From NCBI GenBank assembly GCA_029219585.1, contig JAQXTR010000044.1, positions 1-64,000 on the forward strand: DNA of 64,000 bases, in the 5' to 3' direction. The position numbers and the translations under genes are program-made. Source of the stretch: Clostridiales bacterium (lineage in GTDB: Bacteria > Bacillota > Clostridia > UBA1381). The notes under the pieces are model-generated. The model was given only the letters and a program-made list of their open reading frames with translations, was not told where the DNA came from and ran no database searches. Shown here piece by piece: positions 520 through 5,420 of this stretch; the first letter of the stretch is position 1; every line of letters starts with the position of its first letter.

Positions 520-1086
520 TTAAATTGTTGCCGCATTTATATTTTTCATAAAGACGGAATAAATAAATTCAAGCTGCATCTGCGTGTTTTCTGCATTCTC
601 CCATACGGCATAGTCGAGAACTGCCGATATAAAAAGATACACAAGCGGCTTTAATTCCTGTGTGCTGCATTGCAACCGCAAAGCAAGCATCTTAACATAT
701 TTATCGTAAATGATATTTATGTCTTTCCCTTGTTCCCGTACCTTTACACCATAAACAGGACTTGCCGCCATTTGATAAATAAACCGCAATTCGTTTTTGT
801 ATTTGTCAATTTCTGAAAGACATTCATCAAAAAACTTGCGTAAATTCTCCATATTTGAAAACACATATAAAAATATTTCATCAACAACCTTTATTAGTCC
901 GTATTCTGCAGCTTCGCATATTAAATCTTGCTTGCTACTGAACCAGTAATAAATACTGCCTTGTGCAATTCCCGTACCTTTGCAAAGCTCTCTTATTGTT
1001 ATATTTTCAAGCCCATGCTTTACGAGGTAATTGAATGTACTGTCTAATAGTCCATCTTCGTCAATCTGATATGTCGCAACTTTCAT
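520..1086 (-). CDS. TetR/AcrR family transcriptional regulator
   Basis: 188 residues, the usual TetR length. An N-terminal helix-turn-helix (about residues 25-50) reads ITIRELCKGTGIAQGSIYYW, with the G-x-IYYWF-x-SKxDL pattern that marks the recognition helix and helix 4. The rest is an all-helical ligand/dimer domain with no recognisable specificity. The start is the ATG 9 bases after AAAGGAG; an ATG three codons upstream is out of frame. The 66-base leader has a small hairpin (CGTGC/GCACG) just before the ribosome site and no good promoter of its own, so transcription may depend on the adjacent invertible-looking segment. The secreted-protein gene follows on the same strand. Confidence 0.9.
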   Translation of the reverse strand: MKVATYQIDEDGLLDSTFNYLVKHGLENITIRELCKGTGIAQGSIYYWFSSKQDLICEAAEYGLIKVVDEIFLYVFSNMENLRKFFDECLSEIDKYKNELRFIYQMAASPVYGVKVREQGKDINIIYDKYVKMLALRLQCSTQELKPLVYLFISAVLDYAVWENAENTQMQLEFIYSVFMKNINAATI

Positions 1087-1152
1087 ATTTCATTATCTCC
1101 TTTGCGTGCAAAAACGCACGGTTTAATTTTTAGCAAAAAAATTTGCCTGCAA

Positions 1153-1201
1153 CATAATCGAAATTATGCGGTAAAGGCATCACCACATAATCGAAATTAT
1201 G
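1153..1201. repeat. left 49-bp inverted repeat of a putative invertible promoter segment
   Basis: The reverse complement of this stretch equals 1584-1632 exactly over 49 bases. The unit is CATAATCGAAATTATG, a 17-base spacer, then CATAATCGAAATTATG again. Each 16-mer is itself a hairpin (CATAAT-CGAA-ATTATG). Perfect identity of both ends argues for recent or continuing recombination between them. Confidence 0.95.
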
Positions 1202-1452
1202 TTGCTGACAAAGACATTTTCTGATAAATATTTAATCAACTTAGTGATATTGTAAAAAAAATATAGTCGTATTGCAATAAAAAAAGTCACTATCATAACT
1301 GTTATTTCACTGTACTGCACTCCTATGAGTGGACTTTTTACTGACAGAACACCGAATTTCTTCCTATTCAATATAAAAACATAGCAAACAAGACCAATGA
1401 AAATTTTTAAAACAACATTGGTCTAAAAAGCGTGCCTGTTTTATTGCATAAT

Positions 1453-1508
1453 GACGAAATATTAAAAAAAATCGGTATGATACCAGACGAAATATTAAAA
1501 AAAATCGG
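1453..1508 (+). repeat. two 23-bp direct repeats upstream of the switch promoter
   Basis: GACGAAATATT followed by an A8 run and TCGG occurs at 1453-1475 and again at 1486-1508, identical, with a 33-base period (three helical turns). The second copy ends 7 bases before the -35 box at 1516. Placement fits binding sites for an activator or accessory protein. Confidence 0.7.
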
Positions 1509-1515
1509 CAAATCA

Positions 1516-1544
1516 TTGACAAATGCCTCTTTAAATGGTATAAT
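1516..1544 (+). promoter_or_regulatory. consensus sigma-A promoter inside the invertible-looking segment
   Basis: TTGACA (1516-1521), a 17-base spacer, TATAAT (1539-1544): a perfect consensus. In the present orientation it points right, across the right repeat into the antisense strand of the recombinase gene, with no plus-strand gene until 3147. After inversion it would face tetR. Confidence 0.85.
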
Positions 1545-1583
1545 GTCAATGTATATATTGTATGTACTTGATACTTTTTACCA

Positions 1584-1632
1584 CATAATTTCGATTATGT
1601 GGTGATGCCTTTACCGCATAATTTCGATTATG
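1584..1632. repeat. right 49-bp inverted repeat of the putative invertible segment
   Basis: Exact reverse complement of 1153-1201, with the CATAATTTCGATTATG unit present twice. It begins 39 bases after the -10 box at 1539-1544 and ends 103 bases from the stop codon of the recombinase gene. Confidence 0.95.
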
Positions 1633-1646
1633 TGGTATTTTTTTAT

Positions 1647-1737
1647 CTAATGGGAAATTTCTCAATTTCCTATTAGCAAAAAAGTCTACATATTTGAGCG
1701 TAGCGTAGCGAAACGACAGTCAAGTAGTGACTTTTTT
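1647..1737. repeat. nested inverted repeats at the 3' end of the recombinase gene
   Basis: Two structures lie side by side. 1647-1676 is a 13-bp stem with a TCTC loop and one G-T mismatch (CTAATGGGAAATT / AATTTCCTATTAG), flanked by T and A runs. 1678-1686 (AAAAAAGTC) pairs with 1729-1737 (GACTTTTTT) across a loop containing GCGTAGCGTAGCG. The second may terminate the recombinase transcript; together they could be recombinase or attachment-site structure. Confidence 0.6.
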
Positions 1738-2575
1738 ATAGCCGTAAAAGCCCTAATTTCTGTATTTGTCTACGGTGTGTTTCACCTGTTTCCATAGTGT
1801 AGATACGTGTAGTATCTACGCTTGAATGGCCGAGTATATCGGCAAGCCGTACTATATCCTTTTGAATTGAGTAAAATGTTCTTGCGAACAAATGCCTTAG
1901 ATTATGCGGGAACACCTTTGCACGTGCAACTCCCGCTCTTTCGCACAGTGCTTTCATCATCTTCCATATATTGGAGCGGTCAAGCGGTTTACCGCTTTTT
2001 GTTACAAACACCGAGCCACTTGTGATTTTCTGCCCTTTTGAGTATTGCAGTAACATTCTGCAAAGGTCTTTCGGGAGTATTACAATTCGCATTTTGCCCT
2101 TTAGGTTGATTTGCGCTTTTTGTGCTTTTAAACTCTCTACAGTTATATAGCACAGCTCCGATACCCTTATTCCCGTTGAGCATATCGTCTGCATCAGGAA
2201 ATATAACTGCTCATTCCCCTTGCCCTTTGCGGCGGTCAAAAGCCGTTTATATTCATCCTTTGTCAGCTCATTGTCCTTATTGGCAAATATCTGTCTTTGA
2301 ATTTTTAGATTTTTTACCCTAAGGTTATACCATTCATTGAATGCGAAAAAGCTGTTAAGTGATGACAGAACGGAATTAACGCTTGCAGGTGCATAGTTCT
2401 TTGTCAAGCTCTCCTTGTAGGTCAGAACTGTTTCCTTATCAAGCGTCTTTTCTCCGAGCCAGGCGGCAAAGACATTTATATCACGGATATATTTCTCAAC
2501 CGTTGCTGTGGCCTTTTCCTCCTCAATCAAGTATTGTCGGAATTTGCTTATAAGTTCTTTTGTGATTTTTTTCAT
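1736..2575 (-). CDS. tyrosine recombinase/integrase
   Basis: 279 residues with the two-domain layout of XerC/D-like integrases: an N-terminal SAM-like core-binding domain (about 5-90) and a catalytic domain (about 105-275). The catalytic set is complete: Arg137 in TGIRVSEL, a beta-hairpin Lys near 159-161, His224 and Arg227 in HNLRHLF, His250 in LGHSSVDTT and the nucleophile Tyr259 in RIYT. The enzyme cuts and rejoins DNA through a 3'-phosphotyrosine. AAAGGAG precedes the ATG. Its 3' end is 103 bases from a perfect inverted-repeat segment with an internal promoter, so it is the natural candidate for the inverting enzyme, although proximity to tRNA-Glu also fits a remnant of an integrated element. 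Confidence in the family is high; the DNA target is an inference. Confidence 0.93.
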   Translation of the reverse strand: MKKITKELISKFRQYLIEEEKATATVEKYIRDINVFAAWLGEKTLDKETVLTYKESLTKNYAPASVNSVLSSLNSFFAFNEWYNLRVKNLKIQRQIFANKDNELTKDEYKRLLTAAKGKGNEQLYFLMQTICSTGIRVSELCYITVESLKAQKAQINLKGKMRIVILPKDLCRMLLQYSKGQKITSGSVFVTKSGKPLDRSNIWKMMKALCERAGVARAKVFPHNLRHLFARTFYSIQKDIVRLADILGHSSVDTTRIYTMETGETHRRQIQKLGLLRL

Positions 2576-3146: not shown

Positions 3147-3833
3147 ATGATTGGAGTATTGGCAAATACAGCGACAATAATTATAGGTTCAATAATTGGG
3201 TTACTTATAAAAAAAGGGTTGCCCGAACGTCTTTCAAAGGCAATGACTACCGCTACCGCTCTTGCTGTAGTATATATCGGTATCAGCGGTATGATGAGTG
3301 GACAAAACACACTCGTGTTGGTGCTTTCTATGGTAACAGGCGGAATAATCGGCACGCTTCTAAACCTTGATGCTCACCTTGAAAATCTCGGAAATACAAT
3401 AGAGGCAAGGTTTAAATCCGATAACAGCAACGCAAAAATAGCTGAAGGGTTTATAAGTGCCACCCTCCTTTTCTGCGTAGGTGCAATGACAATTGTGGGT
3501 GCACTGCAATCAGGTCTTTCACATAACCACGAAATGCAATTCACAAAAGCTATACTTGACTTTGTTTCATCAATTGTACTTGCCTCTGCTTTGGGCTGGG
3601 GTGTAATGCTTTCAGCAGTATCTGTATTTGCTATACAAGGCTCAATAGTTCTATTGGCACAGGCTCTTACACCGTTATTGAGCGACTATGTTATCGGCGA
3701 AATGACGTGTGCCGGCTCGGTATTGATTTTTATGCTTGCCCTTAATATGCTCGGTGTAACAAAAATTAAGCTGATGAATTTTGTACCGGCTATATTTATG
3801 CCGATTTTGCTGTGTATGATAATTCCATTGTAA
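3147..3833 (+). CDS. DUF554 (YqgA-like) membrane protein
   Basis: 228 residues, almost wholly hydrophobic, with six or seven predicted membrane spans. The N-terminus MIGVLANTATIIIGSIIG and the Gly-rich span VTGGIIGTLLNLD are typical of the DUF554/YqgA family of inner-membrane proteins; a charged cytoplasmic loop (about 75-100) precedes the second half. The family is often described as a possible transport subunit, but no substrate is established. The ribosome site is weak (GAAAGG, about 13 bases upstream). It has its own consensus promoter and terminator, so it is a single-gene unit. Confidence 0.85.
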   Translation: MIGVLANTATIIIGSIIGLLIKKGLPERLSKAMTTATALAVVYIGISGMMSGQNTLVLVLSMVTGGIIGTLLNLDAHLENLGNTIEARFKSDNSNAKIAEGFISATLLFCVGAMTIVGALQSGLSHNHEMQFTKAILDFVSSIVLASALGWGVMLSAVSVFAIQGSIVLLAQALTPLLSDYVIGEMTCAGSVLIFMLALNMLGVTKIKLMNFVPAIFMPILLCMIIPL

Positions 3834-3896: not shown

Positions 3897-4199
3897 ATTC
3901 AACAAGTATTTATCAAACATTGATGTTATAACATTTTAAGCCTTTGAACGGTCTGCGCTAAAGGCATCAGCACCGTGCGGGGCTGAATGAATTTAGATGC
4001 AGAATTTGCGAAACGAACCCGACGGCGTACGTGGGTACTCCGAGGGTGAGTTTCGCGAATAGTTCAAAGGCATTAAATACAGGAAATCCGCAAAGAATGC
4101 GGATTTCAACATCAATTTTATTCAATAACTCTTTATCAGACTTTTATTTTATGACATCTTAAGCCTTTGAACGATCGGCGCTAAAGGCATCAGCACCAC
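3893..4199 (+). repeat. composite intergenic repeat, copy A
   Basis: Made of two about 70-80-base flanking modules (3893-3974 and about 4117-4199, each ending in GCCTTTGAACG, GCGCTAAAGGCATCAGCACC) around a body (about 3975-4132) with GGCTGAATGAATTTAGATGC and GACGGCGTACGTGGGTACTC. The body recurs at about 9474-9640 and, inverted, at 17091-17265. Short frames across it resemble each other only because the DNA is repeated; none has a ribosome site. It fills the gap between the convergent 3' ends of the DUF554 gene and trpB. Confidence 0.85.
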
Positions 4200-4202
4200 T
4201 TT

Positions 4203-5420
4203 TTATCTTATGCCATATTTCTCTATGATATAGTCCATATCCTTGTCGCCTCTGCCCGACAGGTTTACAAGTATTGAGCCGTTGCCCATCTTCTTCGCAA
4301 GCTTCATCGCATACGCAACAGCGTGTGAACTCTCAATTGCAGGAATGATACCCTCAAGACGTGACAGCTTGAAGAATGCGTCTATCGTTTCATCGTCCGA
4401 TACTACGTCATACTTAACTCTGCCTAAATCGTGCAGGAACGCGTGTTCAGGACCTGATGAGGGATAATCCAGTCCGCTTGCTACTGAATATACAGGAGCA
4501 GGATCGCCGTTTTCATCCTTTAGCATTATGCTGTTAAAGCCATGCATTGTTCCCTCTGTTCCGTACGTGAGGCTTGCGGCGTGGTCGCCAAGCTTCTCAC
4601 CACGTCCTAACGGCTCTACGCCGTATATCTCAACAGGATCGTTTAAAAATCCCGCAAACATACCCATCGCATTTGAGCCGCCGCCAACGCAAGCAACAAC
4701 TGCATCAGGCAGTTCGCCTGTCATATCCATAAACTGTTCTCTTGCCTCAATTCCCACTACGCTCTGGAAGTCTCTTACCATCATCGGGAACGGATGCGGT
4801 CCGACAACGGAGCCTATACAGTAAATAGCGTCCTTATATTCCTTTGTATATGCCATAAATGCACCGTCTACAGCCTCTTTTAATGTTGCAAGACCATCTG
4901 TAACCTCTACGACATTTGCACCTAATATTTTCATTCTTGCAACGTTCGGAGCCTGTTTCTTTATGTCAACTGCACCCATATAGATGTCGCACTCAAGTCC
5001 GAAATATGCCGCCGCCGTTGCCAATGCAACACCGTGCTGTCCTGCGCCCGTTTCGGCAATAACCTTTTTCTTACCCATATATTTTGCAAGCAACGCTTCA
5101 CCCATACAATGGTTAAGCTTATGCGCGCCTGTATGGTTTAAGTCCTCACGTTTAACGTAAATGTGGACATTGCCAAGCGACCCTGAAAATCTTTCAAGGT
5201 ATGATATAGGTGTCGGTCTGCCCTGAAATTCCTTGCGTATTCTTCTTAGTTCGCTGATGAACTTTGATGACTTGCAAATGGTACGATACGCTTCGGTGAT
5301 TTCCTCCATTGCTTTCTTTAAATTCTCGTCAATGTACGCACCGCCGTATTTTCCAAAATAACCGTTTTCATCGGGATAATTCTTAAAGTATGTATCAAAG
5401 TCTATTCCATTATAATTCAT
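4203..5420 (-). CDS. trpB: tryptophan synthase beta chain
   Basis: 405 residues, the normal TrpB length. It condenses indole with L-serine on PLP to make tryptophan. Visible features are the PLP lysine in HTGAHKLNH, the catalytic region [17 protein letters not shown] with its Glu, the phosphate-binding loop [11 protein letters not shown] and the C-terminal SGRGDKD typical of the TrpB1 class. The start ATG follows GGAGG with an A-rich spacer. No trpA or other trp gene is adjacent, so it stands alone here and may use salvaged indole or a remote TrpA. No T-box or other tryptophan leader is visible in the 100 bases upstream. A sodium symporter gene of the family that includes tryptophan carriers starts about 680 bases away, divergent. 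Confidence 0.95.

Follow-up and report, generated by a model that had tools for sequence, protein, structure and literature searches.

The 64-kb stretch of Clostridiales DNA analysed here (hereafter the window) holds, near its start, a promoter enclosed between two inverted repeats, which faces away from a tetR gene and a gene for a secreted surface protein and lies next to a tyrosine recombinase gene. An earlier note had read this arrangement as a probable phase-variable invertible promoter, caught in the OFF orientation. In this study we ask whether the segment belongs to an inverting switch, which recombinase would flip it and which genes it would control.

Architecture of the locus

The two repeats, described in the earlier note as perfect 49-bp copies, are indeed perfect, with 100% complementarity, and measure 51 bp; the segment bracketed between them holds 380 bp instead of 382 bp (Table 1). 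Each arm is composed of two tandem copies, 33 bp apart, of one near-palindromic site, CATAA-N6-TTATG, whose core in the window is CATAA-TCGAAA-TTATG or its complement, and the four sites start at 1153, 1186, 1584 and 1617. This tandem structure was absent from the note, as was the terminator-like outer site of the right arm with its seven T. The pattern CATAATNNNNATTATG occurs four times in the window, always inside the arms (shuffle mean 0.01), and the exact window site, with up to one mismatch allowed, is confined to the arms within the 2.03-Mb genome; it is therefore no plain repeat family occurring elsewhere, a case that the note had named as one that would speak against its reading. The spacer between the tandem sites (GCGGTAAAGGCATCACCAC; 1168-1186 and 1599-1617) resembles a 19-mer at 3955-3973 and 4178-4196, within an 82-nt local repeat 2.3-3 kb off, and these are the four copies of the spacer-like 19-mer in the whole genome when up to two mismatches are allowed.

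The promoter was found where it had been placed, facing away from tetR, and no plus-strand gene lies near it, the next one starting at 3147. The claim that tetR has no good promoter of its own also holds: no minus-strand promoter matching at least 10 of the 12 consensus positions lies between tetR and the segment, and the best candidate of this search (9/12) lies inside the segment. Recomputing the inverted form places the -10 at 1241-1246 on the minus strand, as the note had predicted, about 150 bp ahead of tetR. The spacing of the two A-tract repeats upstream of the -35 equals that of the tandem sites (33 bp).

Table 1. Features of the switch locus, in window coordinates.
Feature	Position	Strand	Basis
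Secreted surface protein, cut by contig end	1-461	-	ORF; homologues of 630-672 aa with dockerin, fn3, SLH
TetR-family regulator, 188 aa, intact, first gene behind the switch	520-1086	-	ORF; homologues at other loci
Inverted repeat CGTGC-N6-GCACG by tetR ribosome-binding site, candidate operator	1105-1120	.	prediction
Left gene-side arm, two recombination sites (cores 1153-1168, 1186-1201)	1152-1202	.	complementarity, site search
Invertible segment, 380 bp, OFF as assembled	1203-1582	.	arms; homologous segments inverted in relatives
Interrupted palindrome AGACCAATG...CATTGGTCT within segment	1391-1424	.	resembles segments of other loci, both orientations
Pair of identical 23-bp A-tract repeats ahead of the -35, spaced by 33 bp	1453-1475, 1486-1508	+	repeat search
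Predicted sigma-70 promoter TTGACA-N17-TATAAT, TG before -10	1516-1544	+	consensus match 12/12
Right recombinase-side arm, two recombination sites (cores 1584-1599, 1617-1632)	1583-1633	.	complementarity, site search
Outer recombinase-side site and T-run, predicted intrinsic terminator of OFF transcript	1612-1645	+	fold; T-run asymmetry in relatives
Tyrosine recombinase, 279 aa, XerA/XerD-like, intact	1736-2575	-	catalytic R137 K161 H224 R227 H250 Y259

The recombinase

The neighbouring tyrosine recombinase, taken as intact in the earlier note, has a full open reading frame and a complete R-K-HxxR-H-Y catalytic set when aligned with XerA (5hxy). It stays under the curated NCBIfam cut-offs of XerA (145.6 vs 220), XerC (113 vs 335) and XerD (135 vs 330), as well as under that of PRK09870, the FimB/FimE-like tyrosine-type DNA invertase (38.2 vs 221 bits). 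The family is present in 48/291 sampled Clostridia genomes, and megaplasmids of Oscillospiraceae and Monoglobus hold members at ~51%; among phage records, one match reached 46% and the others were weak. A reading as an integrase with att sites was rejected, the sites being inverted and located 3' of the gene without flanking it, and a scan of IMG/VR gave no relatives.

Sites of the related loci

Relatives of the locus were collected from related genomes and GTDB contigs (first set) and by class and phylum searches (second sample). The first set includes 64 loci with an exact site pair just 3' of the recombinase; the inverted pair usually begins ~10-35 bp past the recombinase stop, with ~130-480 bp between the sites. 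The central hexamers were compared between exact cores, degenerate sites being put aside and not counted. The hexamer is identical at all sites of a locus in 64/64 cases, with 42 different hexamers among the loci, and random re-pairing gives a mean of ~3/64 matches. Of the 29 loci in the second sample, 21 have exact pairs, four of which repeat loci of the first set, and the hexamers of the flanking pair match in 17/17 new loci (the segment of L137 holds a further palindrome, unrelated to the sites). In every locus compared, the two partner sites have inverted arms and share the same central overlap. Strand exchange by tyrosine recombinases demands a match within a site pair and leaves freedom between loci; hexamers alike within a locus and free between loci are therefore what is expected of strand-exchange sites. 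Copies within one genome mostly carry different hexamers, although pairs are few and genome G005 has one identical pair. In some relatives no second site was recognisable near the recombinase, which a contig end explains in several cases.

In most relatives each side holds a single site, which makes the double-site arms of the window unusual, but extra sites are found at other family loci too, in 1+2, 1+3 or 2+1 arrangements. Inversion of a 1+3 array at its middle site would give a 2+2 array with mirrored spacers, which is the layout of the window, and the 51-bp arms are thus plausibly the trace left by a past inversion. In silico, crossovers that mix inner and outer sites move the promoter by 33 bp, which would put the -10 at 1208-1213 or 1274-1279, and double-site arms could change recombination activity.

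Inversion and orientation among relatives

Cassettes of this family invert in nature. Loci L075 (Candidatus Mediterraneibacter avicola) and L076 (Ca. M. intestinipullorum) are the same locus in opposite orientations: the segment with its sites (277 bp) is 100% identical and reversed, while the flanks, 97.7% and 99.5% identical, run in the same direction. Moreover, in the pairs L042/L043, L035/L036 and L046/L048, the homologous recombinase side runs in the same direction and the segment is reversed, at 78-88% identity.

A strong promoter, defined as one matching at least 10 of 12 consensus positions, is present in the segment of 56/64 loci, compared with 2% when segments are shuffled. Among these 56, the promoter points toward the recombinase (OFF) in 46 and away from it (ON) in 10, and the recombinase tree requires at least 12 changes of orientation. 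The excess of OFF is not general; it is absent from the second sample, where the two orientations are nearly balanced (11 ON and 9 OFF, repeated loci included). The window species shows one orientation in the assembly, and comparison with the relatives supports the earlier assignment of this orientation as OFF. The same comparison backs the proposal that the adjacent recombinase inverts the promoter; it very probably flips the segment of the window.

Terminator features and the OFF transcript

In the 64-locus set, the distance between the -10 and the site where transcription exits the segment is usually 26-50 bp. A T-run (at least six T of nine) follows outward of the recombinase-side site in 37/50 loci and of the gene-side site in 2/50, an asymmetry that is significant in the first set (Wilcoxon p 5e-9) as in the second sample (p 9e-4); within the segment, the T content equals background, ~3 of 9. 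The double site of the window has a predicted fold of -36.7 kcal/mol (z -8.7) directly before U7. With such a hairpin and T-run, the recombinase-side site probably doubles as an intrinsic terminator that would end the OFF transcript ahead of the recombinase gene.

In the sub-group of the window (e.g. L034, L035, L036, L040, L062 and L089), the gene-side flank contains conserved GCAGGC- or AAGGCAT-like bases and then T7-8, ~8 nt past the gene-side site, which may represent an attenuator of the ON leader.

Probable switched genes

The first downstream gene is codirectional with the ON promoter in 57/59 family loci. A homologous TetR is encoded by the first or second gene at eight other loci (L122, L036, L089, L108, L035, L040, L062 and L101). 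The surface-protein frame runs off the contig, base 1 of the window being base 1 of the contig, and the 153-aa secreted fragment that remains has full-length homologues (630-672 aa) at L062, L122 and L091. These comparisons argue for tetR and the secreted surface protein as the regulated genes, in line with the earlier note.

Other genes behind switches of the family encode large SLH and repeat proteins, Rrf2 regulators, and TadZ-like, NRPS, vWA and CAP12-TIR proteins; at L101, a Wzz/tyrosine-kinase-like polysaccharide gene lies behind a TetR. At L060 (6149-7693), the gene behind the switch encodes a CAP12/Pycsar-type TIR and cupin protein, which suggests a phase-variable defence-like gene.

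No TetR operator conserved across all tetR loci was found, palindromes being common to sub-groups only, and the palindrome scores of tetR leaders are not above those of non-tetR leaders. The palindrome TGTAAYGNNCATTACA, a candidate operator, is common to L035, L040, L062 and L089 between the gene-side site and the related tetR, and AACANNTGTT-like motifs take its place in L122, L036 and L108.

Discussion

The locus is, with high probability, a self-contained promoter-inversion (phase-variation) cassette, OFF as assembled, of which a flip would turn ON tetR and an SLH-type surface gene. The adjacent recombinase would recognise the CATAA-N6-TTATG sites in both inverted arms and exchange strands inside their 6-bp centre, which would flip the segment. 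In the OFF state, the promoter would face the 3' end of the recombinase gene and yield a short transcript ending at the hairpin and T-run of the recombinase-side site; in the ON state, the inverted promoter would drive transcription across the gene-side arm, through tetR and into the downstream gene for the SLH-type surface protein. More speculatively, TetR may further gate expression in ON cells. The anatomy, the hexamer identity within loci, the architecture across the family and the natural inversions in relatives are observed; from these we infer that the switch is active in the window species, that the recombinase-side site acts as a terminator and that tetR and the surface gene are controlled by the switch.

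The sites form hairpins and are terminator-like, as would those of a palindromic repeat or terminator family that takes no part in recombination. That reading is contradicted, for the family, by the L075/L076 inversion, and the hexamer identity in 64/64 loci speaks against it as well; together with the restriction of the exact window site to a single locus of its genome, the inversion rules it out, and we give it a negligible probability. It is improbable that the cassette is locked in the window species, tandem sites or unseen changes blocking inversion and leaving tetR and the surface gene silent or under another promoter. The single assembled orientation and the presence of four sites rather than two are compatible with a lock, but the arms are perfect, the hexamers match and the recombinase is intact; furthermore, extra sites occur at other loci, some of which are ON (L062; L141, L143, L148 and L151).

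Equally improbable is a neighbour that is incidental, the segment being flipped in trans by a recombinase from elsewhere, either another family copy or XerC/XerD. The genome does contain at least one other family recombinase (contigs C52 and C58), but in locus after locus of the family the site pair lies directly beside its own recombinase, and the switch on C52 carries a different hexamer (TTTTCA). The promoter facing the recombinase 3' end could also mean that the OFF orientation is functional, producing a short RNA or an antisense to the recombinase and thus two outputs from one switch; terminator features at the recombinase-side site in most relatives would limit read-through, and this reading is a little less probable still.

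Beyond the window, a broader picture could be drawn, which we offer tentatively and at somewhat less than even chance. The family would be an undescribed group of self-contained promoter-flipping cassettes of Clostridia, in which the fixed arms bind the recombinase, the variable 6-bp centre works as an address specific to each locus and the OFF transcript is terminated at the recombinase-side site. Tandem sites would rearrange in ~33-bp steps (1+3 to 2+2) and give more than two promoter positions, and in a sub-group with a TetR as the first switched gene, this regulator may gate the surface protein, so that DNA orientation and a ligand signal would act together.

Invertible promoters are already known as a kind, and the locus is a member by the features tested: inverted repeats flank the segment, an outward promoter lies inside it and, at the level of the family, both orientations occur in nature (L075/L076 and three other pairs). 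With XerC/XerD-dif and archaeal XerA, the system shares the recombinase fold and the catalytic residues. XerC/XerD-dif sites have imperfect palindromic arms and a 6-bp centre, as do the sites of the window; unlike Xer-dif, the locus has paired inverted sites by the recombinase gene, with variable centres, and not one dif per chromosome. The fimS/FimB-FimE system of Escherichia coli type 1 fimbriae resembles the locus in its promoter within a short inverted-repeat-flanked segment, its adjacent tyrosine recombinase gene and its ON/OFF control of a surface structure. Unlike fim, the locus has one recombinase, with 145 bits to XerA vs 38 to PRK09870, and the sites differ; moreover, according to work cited in PMC2784873, fim uses a Rho-dependent terminator, whereas the recombinase-side site of the window is itself terminator-like.

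Gut invertons of Bacteroides, Akkermansia and Firmicutes_A, as presented in PhaseFinder catalogues (PMC11892184), are also invertible promoters near recombinases that control surface genes; unlike them, the locus belongs to a specific recombinase/CATAA-N6-TTATG family. PMC11892184 reports Firmicutes_A inverton repeat motifs that were new at the time, the letters of which are in its supplements, and CATAA-N6-TTATG may possibly overlap one of these.

The earlier note had likened the locus to the RecV switches of Clostridioides difficile. This holds for a tyrosine-recombinase switch of a surface gene, and RecV/cwpV also shares with the locus its occurrence in Clostridia, the terminator of the OFF transcript and a cell-wall protein as target; its ~21-bp inverted repeats, ~200 bp apart, were counted as a further likeness (PMC2784873). 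The comparison fails for the layout: the region inverted at cwpV does not include the promoter, and recV lies elsewhere (PMC2784873), whereas the window cassette includes both the promoter, inside the segment, and an adjacent recombinase, and neither feature of the RecV/cwpV type was found in it. Its layout is more like that of fim or of the Bacteroides promoter invertons than like that of RecV/cwpV.

No description of the recombinase/site family was found in the freely readable article texts searched, and the family appears undescribed there. For phase variation in gut Clostridia, a largely uncultured group, it provides a defined pair of recombinase and site, and a searchable signature, namely the recombinase family together with CATAA-N6-TTATG pairs of matching centres, from which the surface proteins, polysaccharide operons and other systems under such switches can be predicted. 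With its matched hexamers, the family lends itself to direct tests of strand-exchange specificity, and a single site serving as recombination site and terminator would be a compact design.

Other family members in the same genome

Contig C58 of the window genome (G000; locus L088) encodes at 1-264 the C-terminal part of a family recombinase, 75% identical and truncated at the contig start; downstream of this fragment no sites could be recognised. A second family inverton lies on contig C52 (L128) at 4791-5020 and is assembled OFF, its site pair occupying 4791-4808 and 5003-5020. It lies in front of two genes, one for a predicted subtilisin-like protease and one for a 1129-aa secreted protein, and the translated bases at the end of the contig appear, by eye, to encode the C-terminus of another family recombinase.
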